Shown one piece after another: positions 31,833 to 37,264 of a stretch of DNA of 46,843 bases. The notes under the pieces are model-generated. The model searched no databases and was not told the DNA's origin. It saw only the letters and a program-made list of their open reading frames with translations. The stretch is from positions 1 to 46,843 of the forward strand of contig VGPF01000016.1 of the NCBI GenBank assembly GCA_016875535.1, in the 5' to 3' direction. Position 1 is the stretch's first letter; every line of letters begins with the position of its first letter. Position numbers and translations under genes: made by a program. This stretch comes from Chloroflexota bacterium (lineage in GTDB: Bacteria > Chloroflexota > Dehalococcoidia > SHYB01).

Positions 31833-32453
31833 TTACGCCCGTGCCGTCTTCGCCTTCACCGCCGTCGCCGCTACGTTCACCCGCCGCGACGCCTTCGCGG
31901 GCCGGAGTGCCGGCACCGGCGAAGGGTCATTGAACCAATCGCTCTTCTTCCGCCTGCGCCAGGCCGGGGTCTTCCTATCGAACGTCGCCACTTCCAGCGG
32001 GATCCAGTTGGGGTCGTACACATAGATGGACTTCACGAACGGCGAACCCTTCAGATCCTGGACCTCAGAAACGAGGATTCCCTTGCTCCGCAGCCGCTTC
32101 TGGACAGCCTTCAACTGCCGCAGCCCCTCCACGTTCAGCGCGATATGCTCCATCTTCTGCAGCCGCGTGATCGCCCGCCCCTCACCCGGCCACGCCCCAA
32201 AGAAGTACGACTTCTCCGCCGTTGTGTCCTTCCCCGGAAACTCTGCGAAGGCCAGCGTATCGCCGTTACCTACGTCAAAGAAATAGAGCCGGTTCCACTC
32301 GTCTCCCGATCGCGTCAGCGTCCCAGGCGGGCGCGTCGCACGGGTCACCGTCGCCGCCACCCTCAGCCCAAGGGCGTCCCGGTAGAAGCGCACCGTCTTG
32401 TCCATATCGTTCGTCACCAGCACAACGTGATTGAACCCGGTGATAAGTCCCAT
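31833..32453 (-). CDS. VOC-family protein (glyoxalase/extradiol dioxygenase fold)
   Basis: 206 residues with two beta-alpha-beta3 modules. Candidate metal ligands: His in TGFNHVVLVT, Glu in LAFAEFPGKD, His in KMEHIALNV, Glu in IPLEVATFDR, the usual H/E-H/E set. The C-terminal 45 residues (RRRKKSDW onward, then Ala/Lys/Arg-rich) are an unusual basic tail, probably disordered. AAGGAGAG sits before the ATG. The gene lies 93 bp downstream of the selenoprotein gene in the same direction. Reaction unknown. Confidence 0.87.
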   Translation of the reverse strand: MGLITGFNHVVLVTNDMDKTVRFYRDALGLRVAATVTRATRPPGTLTRSGDEWNRLYFFDVGNGDTLAFAEFPGKDTTAEKSYFFGAWPGEGRAITRLQKMEHIALNVEGLRQLKAVQKRLRSKGILVSEVQDLKGSPFVKSIYVYDPNWIPLEVATFDRKTPAWRRRKKSDWFNDPSPVPALRPAKASRRVNVAATAVKAKTARA

Positions 32454-32546: not shown

Positions 32547-33080
32547 TCAGCGCCCCTGCGTCAAGAGCCGCACCACCTGTGGCAGCGCCTCTTCCGCCCG
32601 CTGCCGCAGCTCCCCCGGCGTCAGACTGCCGATGGGGTGCTTGATCACCGCGAACGGGTAGTCCGCCTTCCCCTGCAGCCGCGCCATCATCTTCGCCGTC
32701 GGCACGAACGGCTCCGTGCACACCACAGCCGTCGGTATCCCTCGCCGCTCCATCGCTATCCCGTCGTGCAAACTGCCCGACGAACACGACCCTCAGTCGC
32801 CCACGGCGGCGATCACCAGGTCACACCGCCTCGCCAGATCGTCCAACAGCGGCGGCGGCGCAGGCGTCGAGCCGTCGCTCTTCTGCGCCCGCACAACCTC
32901 CGTGACCTCGTACCGCTCCGCCATCAGCCTGGCGATCTCCTCCAACAGCGCCCCAGCGTTCAGCTTATGGTTATCCAGTAGGCCGATGCGCTTCCCGTCC
33001 AGTGCCAGCGGTCGCTTCGCCAGCGCCGCAGGCGGGGCGGACGGTTCAGCCCTCGGGTCAACCAAGATGAGTCTCGTCAT
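32547..33080 (-). CDS. UGSC-family selenoprotein (in-frame TGA = Sec96)
   Basis: ATG at 33080 opens a frame that meets TGA at 32793-32795 and, in the same frame, continues to a real stop at 32547. Read through, it gives 177 residues with VIAAVGD-U-GSCSSGSLHDG at the TGA: Sec96, Gly97, Ser98, Cys99, the motif that names the UGSC (seleno)protein family. Both halves look like one protein: LDGKRIGLLDNHKLNAGALL before the codon, and IPTAVVCTEPF and IKHPIGSLTPGEL after it. A hairpin beginning 10 nt after the UGA has the shape of a bacterial SECIS. The Sec/Cys pair suggests a redox selenenylsulfide, but the substrate is unknown. Its ATG overlaps the previous stop as ATGA. A Cys-to-stop mutation is possible but less likely. 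Confidence 0.88.
32762..32795 (-). promoter_or_regulatory. Bacterial SECIS-like hairpin with its UGA
   Basis: In the mRNA the UGA (32795-32793) is followed by 10 nt and then a stem: CGUCG (32782-32778) pairs with CGACG (32766-32762). A G/A mismatch follows, then GCA (32776-32774) pairs with UGC (32770-32768), closed by a GUU loop (32773-32771). E. coli fdhF has 11 nt between UGA and the stem and needs G and U in the loop, so spacing and loop both fit SelB recognition. Confidence 0.7.
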
Positions 33081-33514
33081 GCCGCCTTCACTCCTTCGAT
33101 CGCCCTGTTGATCCGCTTCGCCCACTCCACATTATCCGGGTGCGTCAACACGATCCTCCGGTACCGGTGCTCCGTCAGCTCGACCACCAAAAACCGTTCC
33201 CGGTTCCCCCGCGTCGCATACCAGAACTCCCGGTATCGCCCATTCTTCAACCCCGCCCTTGTAAACGACCACTTCCTCTCCTGCCACAAGTGATACGTCC
33301 CCGCCTTGATCACGCCCGGCATGAACGACCCCGGCGCCCGTATCTCCGGCCATATCGTCTCCGGCCTCTCCGTATGCGCCCGCTCCATCTTCGCCACCGG
33401 CACCTGCAGGTCCCGGTGGACCGCCCACACCTTCTCCCACCTAGAAAGGCGGATGTGCAGAACATTATCGCTAGTAGAAAGTTCCACGCTTCCAAACCTC
33501 CACATCCCGCTCAT
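33077..33514 (-). CDS. Protein of unknown function coupled to the UGSC gene
   Basis: 145 residues or 142 if it starts at the ATG at 33505 (MWRFGSVELS). Strand-rich: VLHIRLSRWEKVWAVH, FMPGVIKAGTYHL, RFLVVELTEHRYRRIVL, and a C-terminal helix WAKRINRAIEG. This pattern is like a PH-type barrel (seven strands and a closing helix), which is a guess from layout. The stop TGA overlaps the selenoprotein start as ATGA, so the two are translated together. The 5' end abuts the dispersed repeat region and has no good Shine-Dalgarno. Confidence 0.65.
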   Translation of the reverse strand: MSGMWRFGSVELSTSDNVLHIRLSRWEKVWAVHRDLQVPVAKMERAHTERPETIWPEIRAPGSFMPGVIKAGTYHLWQERKWSFTRAGLKNGRYREFWYATRGNRERFLVVELTEHRYRRIVLTHPDNVEWAKRINRAIEGVKAA

Positions 33515-33900
33515 CTACGCCTATCAGAAAATCTGCGGACTATTCTCCCCCTTCTACCTCTTCGATCTCTGTGCCCCCGGTGGATGCCCTCTCCCCGATT
33601 CCTCTCCCCCATCTGCGCTCTCTGCAGTATCTGTCATTCCGATGACTCTCGTTTCTATGAGTCCGAGCCTCTCGGACCGCGTGTGTCCTCACCCTCATTC
33701 CTATGAGTCCGGACCGCTCGGGCCGTATGTTGCATCGGGGCCGCACCGGAGCAGACAAATCTCCCTCCCCAAAAACCCTGCTCCCTGCACCTCTTCCACC
33801 ATCCGTGCTCTCTGTGCCCCCAGTGGATCAACTCTCTTCTCTGTCCCTCTCCCAAATCTTCTTAATCTGTGTAATCTGTGTAATCTGTGGATCAAATCCT
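33515..33900 (+). repeat. Dispersed repeat block A (GTGGAT units and hairpins)
   Basis: No gene. It contains units ending in GTGGAT or GCGGAC: 33531-33540, 33564-33585 (CTCTGTGCCCCCGGTGGAT), 33611-33640, 33801-33833 (CTCTGTGCCCCCAGTGGAT) and 33851-33893, where TAATCTGTG is repeated with a 9-bp period and ends in GTGGAT. Two direct copies of a CTATGAGTCC unit (33651 and 33698) each carry a small hairpin; the first is GTCCGAG-CCT-CTCGGAC. The plus strand is strongly pyrimidine-rich. Confidence 0.8.
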
Positions 33901-33915
33901 CCCCCTCTCCTCCCC

Positions 33916-34950
33916 CTACCCCTTCACCGCCTTCGTCTGCGCCGCGCTCATTGCGCCGCGCCCCCACGTCGGTATCACCGCGCTGAACCCGCCCGCCATC
34001 CCTCCCCCGACCACCACCATCGCCGCCCCCGGCGAAGTCAGCACATGCGTCAGCTTCGCCTCATCCTCCGGCGCCACCGTTCCCGGCGTCTTGCCGGTGC
34101 GCTTATAAAAAGCCACCGGCCTCTGCGCCTGGTCGTACAGGAACTGCTTCACCTGCTGCTTGCTCCATCCAGCCTTCGCGATATATCCCGCGTGCTCCGG
34201 GCACAGCACCACCACAAACGTCCCATACCCGCGATTGCACACCGCCATCGCCTCAGCCACCGAGCCGAGGATGCCCTCGGGCCTGTTGTTGCTGTGATCA
34301 TAAACCTGGTGCGGCCCTTCGGCGGCGACGACCGTTACCGCGCTCTCCTCCCTGGTCAAACCTCGCTCCACGTGCAGCGGCGCCCACGGCGAAACATCCT
34401 CCGCCTCCGCGATGCAGTAGCTGTACTTCCCGGGGTGGCCCATCGTGCTCTTATCCAGAACGCCTGGAATAGACCCGACGACGTTCATCACGACCAGCCG
34501 CACCGCCCGGCCGATGGTCGCATTCGCCCGCGCGCCGGGGCCGAAGAGGTTGACCCCCGAATTGATGCCCAGCCTTCCAGCGATGGGCCCGTTCACGATA
34601 ACCAGCTGCGCCGATCCGCCCGTGCTCGCGGACGAGCCGTGCAGGTTAAACTTCGGCTCGCAGATCGCCTCCACGATGGCGAGGACGACCGGCATATACT
34701 CGGGCCTGCACCCCGCCATCACCGCATTCGCCGCAACCTTCTCGGCCGTCAGGACGATGGATCGCTCAGGGATGCGCCCAACGATCTGGTCAGGCGGTAG
34801 GTGGACTGCCTCCAAGAAACGCGCGACCAAAGCCTCTGTCGGCGGCACGATGGGCAGCCCATCCGTCAGCCCTTCGTCAAAGAACCGCTCGATGGCCTCC
34901 CACGCGTCGCCCGCCTCGATCCGCTTCCCCGCCTGGCGCGATTGGCTCAT
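33916..34950 (-). CDS. Large conserved protein, UGSC-neighbour type
   Basis: 344 residues starting MSQSRQAG, with GGAGG ten bases before the ATG at 34950. Well-conserved-looking segments: DGLPIVPPTEALV, then AEKVAANAVMAGCRPEYMPVV, then LGINSGVNLFGPGARANATIG, then SPWAPLHVERGLTREESAVTV. From memory, proteins with this set of motifs are often found beside, or fused to, UGSC (seleno)proteins; I cannot verify it here. Cys in AVMAGCRPEYM may be functional. The two genes are separated by repeat block A and the 33077 gene. TATAAT on the complement (34997-35002) is the likely promoter. Function unknown. Confidence 0.75.
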   Translation of the reverse strand: MSQSRQAGKRIEAGDAWEAIERFFDEGLTDGLPIVPPTEALVARFLEAVHLPPDQIVGRIPERSIVLTAEKVAANAVMAGCRPEYMPVVLAIVEAICEPKFNLHGSSASTGGSAQLVIVNGPIAGRLGINSGVNLFGPGARANATIGRAVRLVVMNVVGSIPGVLDKSTMGHPGKYSYCIAEAEDVSPWAPLHVERGLTREESAVTVVAAEGPHQVYDHSNNRPEGILGSVAEAMAVCNRGYGTFVVVLCPEHAGYIAKAGWSKQQVKQFLYDQAQRPVAFYKRTGKTPGTVAPEDEAKLTHVLTSPGAAMVVVGGGMAGGFSAVIPTWGRGAMSAAQTKAVKG

Positions 34951-35066
34951 CCCAAAAGTTCCTCCAGGCCCCAACATGTGAGAAAAGAGATGGCCAATTA
35001 TACATAGGGAGCCGCAGCAGAGGGAGCGATTAGCGGCCCGAGCTGCCTAGCCTCTCGTGGCCGGCA

Positions 35067-36524
35067 TCACCGCTCGAACGTCGCCGCGTTGGCCATCGTC
35101 CACGGGCCGCTGCCGCATGCGCCGCCGGGGCCTGCCGAGATCGCCAGCCTCTGCCCATTATTCGTCAACTGCGCCAGGATCGTGATGCCCGAAGCGGGGG
35201 TTCTATTCGCGAGGGCATCGCCCGCATAATCGTAAAAGCGCTCATAGCAATAGACTTGGCCGTCGGTGATCGTATCGAACCGCCGGTTGACCAGGCCGGA
35301 GGCCTGTGGAATGAAGAGGTACTGACGCGCCCGCACGTTCGTCACTGACGTTCCCATGGAGAAGGCATACACGGAGCCGCTCAACGCGCTCGGCCCGATA
35401 TACAGGTGGGGCGCTTCGCTGAACTGCTCGGCGTTGGCCGCTGAATACCAGCGACCCTGGGCCGTCCCAGCGCGGTCCGTGTAGAAATCGCCGCAGCGCG
35501 GCTGGTCGGTCCGGACCATCGAGCGCGAAAAATCCGTGAACAGCCCCAAGTACCGATCCCGTTCGACTGCGGAGACGTAATCGAACAGACAGACCGTGTA
35601 ACAATGTTCAAAGATACCCGGCGGGCCCGTGCCCTTGCACCAGCGTTCGGCGTTCGCGAACGCCGAACGCCCCGTCGCCAGCCGGTAGTCTCGCATGCCC
35701 ATATCCAACCCGCTCACTCCCGCCGCGCGATCTCCCGTTGTCGCCATCTGCACCCCCGCGGCGATGGGTACCCGAACAGGGAAACTACAGAACTTCTCGT
35801 TGCCTGGACCCATGGGCGTACAGCCTTGCGCCCGGAGCGCCTGTGTCAGGTCCGGGTGCGTCAGGCTCCGCACGTGGTGGAAATAGCCCTCCAGGCCGTC
35901 GCACACCCCGAACGACAGCGTGTAATCCGTATAGTTCGTCTTGTCGTTGAGCACCCCATAGTTTCTAAGGGCAATGGAGGTGACGACGATATTACCGGGT
36001 GCATAGACCGGCGCTTCGATGTCGTTCGGCGTGGCGTCGTTCTTTGTGTAGAAATACATGTGCGGCGCCGGGAAGACATGGTCCGGCGGCGTAAGATCGG
36101 CGATCGGACTCATAGAGGCGATGTGCTCCAGCCGCACCGGCGCGTTCGTGAGCGGAGTCGCCGAGCACGGATTGGCCGTAGGCGTTGGCGGCCCTTGGAA
36201 GCGCGTCGGCGTTGGTAAGGGCGTCGCCGTTGGCCTCAGTGTCGCTGTAGGCGTTGCGGGTATCGGCGTTGGCGCTGGCGTAGCCGAGGGTTGCGGGCTC
36301 GGCGTTGGTGGAACAGTAGGGGGGACTGTCGCCATTGGAGGGACTGTTGTTGGAGATGGTGCCGCGAGCGTTGCGTCTGGCAGAGGCGCGGCGGCCGTGG
36401 GCGGCTCCGGTGACCGCTCTCCAGCCGCGGGTTGCGACCCTTCGGTGGCGCACGCTGAAAAGACCAGGACGGCAACAGCCGCCCAGGACAGCATTTGGAT
36501 GTGCTTCACCGTCCCATTGTGCAC
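35067..36524 (-). CDS. Secreted lipoprotein with Pro/Thr linker
   Basis: 485 residues. The N-terminus (MLSWAAVAVLVFSAC) is a lipoprotein signal peptide with lipobox VFSAC. Residues 30-115 are a Pro/Ala/Thr-rich stalk, and the rest is a folded extracellular domain with about 12 cysteines, probably disulfide-bonded. The segment DIEAPVYAPGNIVVTSI and later GYFHHVRSL resemble a degenerate M23 peptidase-like fold, but the metal ligands are not complete, so I do not call it a peptidase. The start is GTG at 36524 or the GTG five codons on. Alone on this strand, downstream of a strong terminator. Confidence 0.7.
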   Translation of the reverse strand: MHNGTVKHIQMLSWAAVAVLVFSACATEGSQPAAGERSPEPPTAAAPLPDATLAAPSPTTVPPMATVPPTVPPTPSPQPSATPAPTPIPATPTATLRPTATPLPTPTRFQGPPTPTANPCSATPLTNAPVRLEHIASMSPIADLTPPDHVFPAPHMYFYTKNDATPNDIEAPVYAPGNIVVTSIALRNYGVLNDKTNYTDYTLSFGVCDGLEGYFHHVRSLTHPDLTQALRAQGCTPMGPGNEKFCSFPVRVPIAAGVQMATTGDRAAGVSGLDMGMRDYRLATGRSAFANAERWCKGTGPPGIFEHCYTVCLFDYVSAVERDRYLGLFTDFSRSMVRTDQPRCGDFYTDRAGTAQGRWYSAANAEQFSEAPHLYIGPSALSGSVYAFSMGTSVTNVRARQYLFIPQASGLVNRRFDTITDGQVYCYERFYDYAGDALANRTPASGITILAQLTNNGQRLAISAGPGGACGSGPWTMANAATFER

Positions 36525-36570
36525 GACGCCAGTAGGTTATGACAAGGGTATAGCTCGTCACCTTCCGCAC

Positions 36571-36608
36571 AAAAAGCGAGGCCTCCCGGCGCGCCGGGAG
36601 GCCTCGCT
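36571..36608 (-). terminator. Terminator of the solute-binding pseudogene
   Basis: A perfect 17-bp palindromic stem (36575-36591 with 36592-36608, core GCGAGGCCTCCCGGCG). On the minus strand it is followed by TTTTTG. Confidence 0.9.
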
Positions 36609-36630
36609 AAGTCAACCATCTGCCGTAAGC

Positions 36631-37264
36631 TTACTTTGTATCCAGCCACACCCGCTCGTAGCGGAAGATGTTTCGCGCATCCGTCGCCATCGTCGCAGGC
36701 TCGCCGGGGTAGCCCTTCACCTCAGGGCGGAAGCCGCCGAAGAAGAGCTCCGTGTAGATCGGGAAGACCCAGGCCAGGTCGTTCACCACCAGCCGGTTGA
36801 TCGCCTGCACCGTCTGCAATCGGGCGGCGATGTCCGCCGTCCCCAACTGCCTCTGGTAGAGGTCCTCTACCCGTTGATCGAACCAGCCCATCACGTTGCA
36901 CGTTCCGCCCTTCACGTAGTACAGCAGCGAGTACTCAGGATCGCCCGAGCCGGACGCCGTCGAGCAGAAGTACCGGGGCAGGAGCTGGAAGAGTCCCTTC
37001 GCCTCGTTCTGCAGGTACGTCGGGTAGTCTGGCGTTTGGATCGTGCCGCTGATGCCGATCTTCTTCAGCTGCTCCAGGATCACCGTCGTCTCGCGCTCGT
37101 ACGTCGCCGCCGCGCTGGCGCCCACGCTCGTGTTAAACGTGAAATTCAGCCCGTTCGGGAACCCGGCGTCCGACAGCAGCTTCCTCGCCGCCGCATGCCG
37201 TAACCACCAGCATCGCGGAAACAATGAGACCCACTAAGGCGAAGAGATGCAACGAAAGCTTCAT
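36631..37264 (-). pseudogene. ABC transporter solute-binding lipoprotein (family 5), internally deleted
   Basis: The minus strand starts with AGGAGGAGG and ATG at 37264, encoding a lipoprotein signal peptide MKLSLHLFALVGLIVSAM with lipobox VVTAC. Right after the lipobox the frame runs out (stop 16 codons later), while another frame continues as the C-terminal 190 residues of an SBP_bac_5 peptide/nickel-binding protein (RHAAARKLLSDAGFPNG, then VMGWFDQRVEDLYQ, then FPIYTELFFGG). A full family member has about 550 residues, so roughly 1 kb is missing with a frame change. The junction lies in a GCGGCGGCG run, which suggests deletion between short repeats. An assembly error is possible. Confidence 0.82.

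Follow-up and report, generated by a model that had tools for sequence, protein, structure and literature searches.

A UGSC-family selenoprotein gene in a Chloroflexota genome and its near-obligate partner: a likely two-subunit reductase remotely related to glycine and D-proline reductases

We analysed a 46,843-nucleotide contig (VGPF01000016.1, assembly GCA_016875535.1; hereafter the window) from a Chloroflexota bacterium of the class Dehalococcoidia, focusing on a putative selenoprotein gene and its surroundings. The locus contains the following features:

31833–32453, minus strand: downstream neighbour, a VOC/glyoxalase-superfamily protein, without conservation beside UGSC genes elsewhere
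32547–33080, minus strand: UGSC-family selenoprotein gene, 177 aa, start ATG at 33080, stop TGA at 32549–32547 (PF24696, NF041046)
32764–32780, minus strand: bacterial SECIS upper stem-loop, positions 16–32 counted from the UGA, with apical loop G23 U24 U25 at 32773–32771
32793–32795, minus strand: in-frame UGA read as selenocysteine (Sec), residue 96 and first residue of the U-G-S-C motif
33077–33514, minus strand: intervening open reading frame (ORF), 145 aa, no assigned function
33091–33096, minus strand: Shine-Dalgarno-like AAGGAG, 10 nt 5′ of the UGSC start codon, found by sequence inspection
33916–34977, minus strand: gene for a candidate partner subunit of 353 aa, with homology to the domain that long UGSC paralogs carry at the C-terminus

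The selenoprotein gene appears as two minus-strand frames (33080–32796 and 32792–32547) that share the same phase and are separated by a single TGA (32795–32793). Reading this codon as Sec gives a 177-aa product (MTRLILVDP...CDLVIAAVGD-U96-GSC-SSGSLHDGIAMERRGIPTAVVCTEPF...) with Sec-Gly-Ser-Cys at residues 96–99, in the context ...IAAVGD-U96-GSC99-SSGSLHDG..., just as the initial annotation had described. However, stop-joined open frames with long flanks are common in this 63% GC window (75 instances, with TGA at the joint in 31), and so the arrangement proves nothing by itself; the selenoprotein case is therefore carried by homology and RNA covariation. The read-through product matches the Pfam model for UGSC proteins (PF24696; 4.7e-60 over 170 residues, 203 bits versus a cut-off of 25) and the NCBIfam model 'UGSC family (seleno)protein' (NF041046; 155.5 bits versus a cut-off of 125), and it displays the U/C-G-S-C motif of the family, in which the Sec/Cys column is invariant across 51 aligned homologues. 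Identity to the two nearest compared relatives is 51–58%, upstream and downstream of the TGA alike. With full-length homology, the Sec-Gly-Ser-Cys motif and alternation between Sec and Cys, the gene shows no departure from the known family and, judged by its sequence, is a new member of it. The UGSC family was described in metagenome work as a major aquatic selenoprotein (PLoS Genet 2008, PMC2398784), and a 2026 review lists it among families that, nearly without exception, are still largely uncharacterised (PMC13188914). We found no paper assigning a function to UGSC proteins.

A hairpin with a GUU apical loop, also noticed in the initial annotation, was recovered by RNAfold starting about 9 nt past the UGA (−17.4 kcal/mol, z −1.7). 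Folding energy is weak evidence by itself (mean z −1.1 versus synonymous shuffles), and the argument for a SECIS element thus relies on covariation and codon usage in the loop rather than on stability. Numbering the U of the UGA as 1, the family stem pairs positions 16–22 with 26–32 around a G23-U24-N25 loop. Across 40 main-type copies, 89.7% of cells pair in this register, whereas none of eight slid registers exceeds 58.6%, and 35 cells are altered on both sides in a compensatory manner. Pair 21–27 falls on a third codon position on either side, and the valine codon there follows its partner base: GTG in 12/12 copies opposite C21 and GTC in 2/2 opposite G21. The serine codon in the loop is AGT in 30/30 copies, against a background of 3.7% of serine codons in the window's genes. 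In other phyla, Sec copies have G23-U24 in 69/71 cases and AGT in 64/71, while Cys copies are without the loop GU. All of these SECIS counts include related sequences, and the events are not independent.

The window hairpin resembles that of E. coli fdhF, where G23 and U24 lie in the loop of an upper hairpin spanning positions 15–31 (PMC8659212): the distance from UGA to stem-loop is the same and the apical G23-U24 is shared. The initial annotation judged the hairpin to fit SelB recognition. In contrast to fdhF, which has a bulged U at position 17, the window copy has a paired C there, as well as one G-A mismatch (19–29). Variation was seen among paralogs fused to a second domain: in six (L056, L063, L064, L087, L088 and L096) the UGA is kept and UC or UU replaces GU at positions 23–24. 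A separate fused subgroup of seven loci (L042, L043, L045, L046, L048, L049 and L050) carries H-U-S-T-C-A-P-A-V as its motif, and past the UGA another hairpin, CGGC-GGUC-GCCG, may form.

The window itself contains none of selA, selB, selC or selD, as previously noted. The 2.5 Mb genome, which is 98% complete, has all four outside the window, in support of the earlier inference that the organism uses selenium. We identified SelA (436 bits), SelB (334 bits, cut-off 242), SelD (371 bits) and a tRNA-Sec with anticodon UCA (66 bits; ARAGORN agrees). The selD gene also has an in-frame TGA, making SelD a selenoprotein too (...KCGG-U-AAKYGPG...; G000:C4:99428-100354, L009). Among 301 genomes of the phylum, we found 75 UGSC matches in 32 genomes, with exactly one in-frame TGA in 71 of the 75 and TAA or TAG in none; the four stop-free matches include one N-terminal fragment. 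In the window's own family, each of the four species has 6–8 UGSC copies, with TGA in nearly all, and the window's genome has seven, comprising six with TGA and one with Cys (G000:C10). Cys-type paralogs in the window's genus (G000:C10:38304-38807, L055/L091; G302:C152:522-1028, L080) show the motif GACWGTSPW, without the resolving Cys at +3, and have lost the SECIS-like loop GU. The Sec form is also the rule in 80 loci from named genomes, which were found by alignment of the partner protein and hence without reference to a Sec codon; Cys forms occur in two Actinobacteria and the haloarchaeon Natrialba. Nakamurella is among the natural carriers of a Cys form. SelB exceeds the cut-off in 38 of the 41 genomes with named loci, including both Actinobacteria with Cys-form UGSC. 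The exceptions are Natrialba (Cys form), L133 (Sec form, with SelB fragments) and L157 (Sec form; a 1.8 Mb assembly with no SelB above the cut-off).

These comparisons strongly support a genuine selenoprotein gene and leave little room for two other readings of the TGA. If the codon were a true stop, the locus would be a decaying pseudogene or would contain a sequencing error, a reading that has the split frame and the abundance of stop-joined frames in the window on its side. This is refuted by the near-universal single TGA in homologues and the complete lack of TAA and TAG, by Sec/Cys alternation in place of the frame decay expected of a pseudogene, by identity that continues past the TGA and by a covarying SECIS alongside complete Sec machinery, and we set it aside with near certainty. 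Reassignment of TGA to another amino acid such as Trp would equally well open the frame, since genetic code 4 reads through the same codon. It is inconsistent with the UGSC gene's own TGA terminator, with Cys rather than Trp at the site in homologues and with the presence of tRNA-Sec (UCA), and its probability is negligible.

Two UGSC paralogs in the window's genome are fusions of about 580 aa in which the last 385 or so residues form a C-terminal domain; fused paralogs measure 576–590 aa. The 353-aa protein encoded two genes upstream of the window's UGSC gene, which the initial annotation had missed, is homologous to this domain (38% identity to the best fused copy, E = 2e-66), although it matches no Pfam or NCBIfam model and is annotated in public records as a 'hypothetical protein'. 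A profile of this partner found it fused to UGSC in 15 proteins and adjacent to UGSC at nearly all of the remaining fetched loci. Conversely, UGSC lies on the same contig in 75 of the 80 top partner loci from named genomes, and the two genes almost always share a strand, with a median gap of 103 bp and a gap within 300 bp in 67 of the 75 same-strand pairs. Among the five partner loci without UGSC, four have the partner beside a contig end and one (L184) is an apparent real exception. At the genome level, UGSC and the partner each occur in 32/301 genomes, with 31 in common, and the association spans many phyla. Distances for the two proteins are correlated (mirror-tree r = 0.89 with fusions left out, versus 0.12 for the best of 1,000 permutations), which partly reflects shared species history. 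Judged from fusion, adjacency, co-occurrence and co-evolution, the two proteins are a pair. Fusion of UGSC to a domain called 'Unknown_1' was reported in 2008 (PMC2398784) and, likened by description rather than alignment, this is probably the partner domain; the comparison presented here adds that the fused domain generally appears as a separate adjacent gene.

Unlike in most relatives, the pair in the window is split by 836 bp, consisting of an extra ORF and non-coding DNA, which counts somewhat against a joint function here. The stop of the 145-aa ORF overlaps the UGSC start (ATGA), and translation of the two may therefore be coupled. We rejected this ORF as a third subunit, having found a homologue in none of the other fetched UGSC loci; the VOC protein and an amino-acid permease, two more neighbours in the window, are likewise absent from those loci. 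The DNA between the ORF and the partner gene (33515–33915, about 400 bp) appears to be non-coding and contains short repeats (ACACAGATTACACAGATTA). Further upstream, two long ORFs on opposite strands partly overlap (35067–36524, minus; 36058–37203, plus) and have no Pfam match, and the first has no homologue among the fetched loci.

Gene neighbourhoods elsewhere offer a hint about the electron donor. The gene order is trxB-trxA-partner-UGSC in Arthrobacter and partner-UGSC-trxB in Roseovarius, a TrxB homologue directly follows UGSC in a Chloroflexota genome (L024) and a Dehalococcoidia genome (L157), and another lies about 1.3 kb downstream of UGSC in Sheuella (L167). The CxxC motif is present in these TrxB homologues. 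Carriers of the pair include Arthrobacter sp. ERGS1:01, Roseovarius sp. THAF8 and Sheuella amnicola (L167), the last a cultivable species with the Sec form. Linkage to trxB makes regeneration of UGSC by a dithiol system plausible, but its rarity (only about 5 of >100 UGSC loci) counts against this reading. Other neighbours are catabolic and include amidohydrolases, SDR proteins, CoA-transferases, TctC/TRAP binding proteins and members of the PEP-mutase family. Phosphosulfolactate synthase-like genes lie near the pair in Arthrobacter (L203, 3686-4474) and Natrinema (L204, 2868-3335); a sulfonate substrate, as these and PEP-mutase genes might hint, was discarded as a general explanation because each occurs at one to a few loci.

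In a scan of 51 UGSC proteins with the 18,950 models of NCBIfam, the families that recurred in second place were GrdB (19 proteins, best E = 7e-5) and GrdF (16), followed by selenoprotein B general (9), PrdB (8) and GrdH (6). Their homology to UGSC is remote and concentrated around UxxC. Profile alignment with hhalign to the PrdB-like proteins of the phylum gave P = 5e-6, with Sec over Sec and Cys over Cys; homology is thus apparent at the superfamily level, with the UxxC Sec and Cys in register with GrdB/PrdB. In contrast, UGSC proteins are only about 170 aa long and score far below the family cut-offs (11 bits versus 300 for PrdB; 22 bits for the best member versus 602 for GrdB). From these alignments, UGSC appears to be distantly related to the Sec-bearing subunit of the reductases that act on glycine, sarcosine, betaine and D-proline. 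The likeness does not extend to the second subunit: none of 48 partner sequences matched any model for GrdE/PrdA-type pyruvoyl subunits, and the partner has no close solved fold. PrdB-like selenoproteins with an in-frame TGA are themselves found in 41/201 genomes of the phylum, with up to ten copies (G169), and the UGSC partner profile gave no match in the fetched PrdB loci (L099-L122).

Structure prediction yielded a confident UGSC model (pLDDT 95) of five alternating beta-alpha units, with Sec96 placed just before a helix at residues 97–112, and its best-ranked structural matches are to Rossmann, flavodoxin and receiver-like folds. The partner, in which D39, N84, G89, N152, R157 and E191 are invariant or nearly so, was also modelled well (pLDDT 92), and its matches to class I fumarate hydratase, cyclic amide hydrolases and chorismate mutase were rejected as weak (Foldseek E ≥1e-3, Z <6). 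Sequence searches found no solved relatives for UGSC or the partner, and likewise for PrdB.

The predicted fold bears on the possibility that UGSC is a general thiol oxidoreductase with a thioredoxin-like fold, which would reduce disulfides or peroxides with the partner as a dedicated client or scaffold. Such a role would suit the UxxC motif and the trxA/trxB neighbours, and a thioredoxin-like fold was deemed likely in 2008 (PMC2398784). The order of beta-alpha units and the ranked matches lean away from that fold, although a missing match is not proof; the recurring remote homologues are GrdB/PrdB rather than thioredoxins, and the pairing of each paralog with a partner of its own points to a specific enzyme. 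We regard this alternative as unlikely. The Sec residue might instead bind or transfer metals or metalloids such as Hg, As or Se species, with the partner as carrier; metal binding has been proposed for other function-orphan bacterial selenoproteins (PMC13188914). However, metal-resistance and metal-regulator genes do not recur near UGSC, where neighbours are catabolic, and this role seems distinctly improbable.

Overall, we favour the reading that the locus encodes a genuine UGSC selenoprotein, which probably serves as the catalytic subunit of a two-subunit, thiol-dependent reductase together with the 353-aa partner. This fits the earlier suggestion of a redox or C-X transfer enzyme, for which the remote GrdB/PrdB homology argues while falling short of proof. 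In glycine and D-proline reductases, the Sec selenolate forms a selenoether and then a selenenyl-sulfide, which is reduced by a dithiol (PMC10298544). By analogy, and starting from a Sec residue that the comparative evidence suggests SelB would insert at position 96 after binding the hairpin just past the UGA, the selenolate, placed at a helix N-terminus in the Rossmann-like domain, would act on a small substrate by attacking one of its carbon-heteroatom bonds. The partner, which would form a physical complex with UGSC, may hold this substrate in the manner of GrdE/PrdA, although it matches those subunits neither in sequence nor closely in fold. Resolution of the product as a selenenyl-sulfide would fall to Cys99, and a dithiol system such as thioredoxin/thioredoxin reductase could reduce it. 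The several paralogous pairs found per genome suggest different substrates.

On a broader proposal we are evenly divided: UGSC and its partner may constitute a class of selenoenzyme not described so far, built of two subunits and standing as a sister to glycine and D-proline reductases, minus GrdE/PrdA. Such a class would occur across many bacterial phyla and, with Cys in place of Sec, in haloarchaea, and the 6–8 UGSC paralogs per genome in the window's family would perform different reductive cleavages of carbon-heteroatom bonds. What appears to be new here is the link between UGSC and GrdB/PrdB and the near-obligate second subunit. UGSC proteins are among the commonest selenoproteins of aquatic metagenomes (PMC2398784), and the two components of this widespread system have until now gone unrecognised as a pair. 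Together with the hint of an electron donor, the second subunit and the link to glycine and proline reductases would turn an orphan selenoprotein into a testable enzyme.
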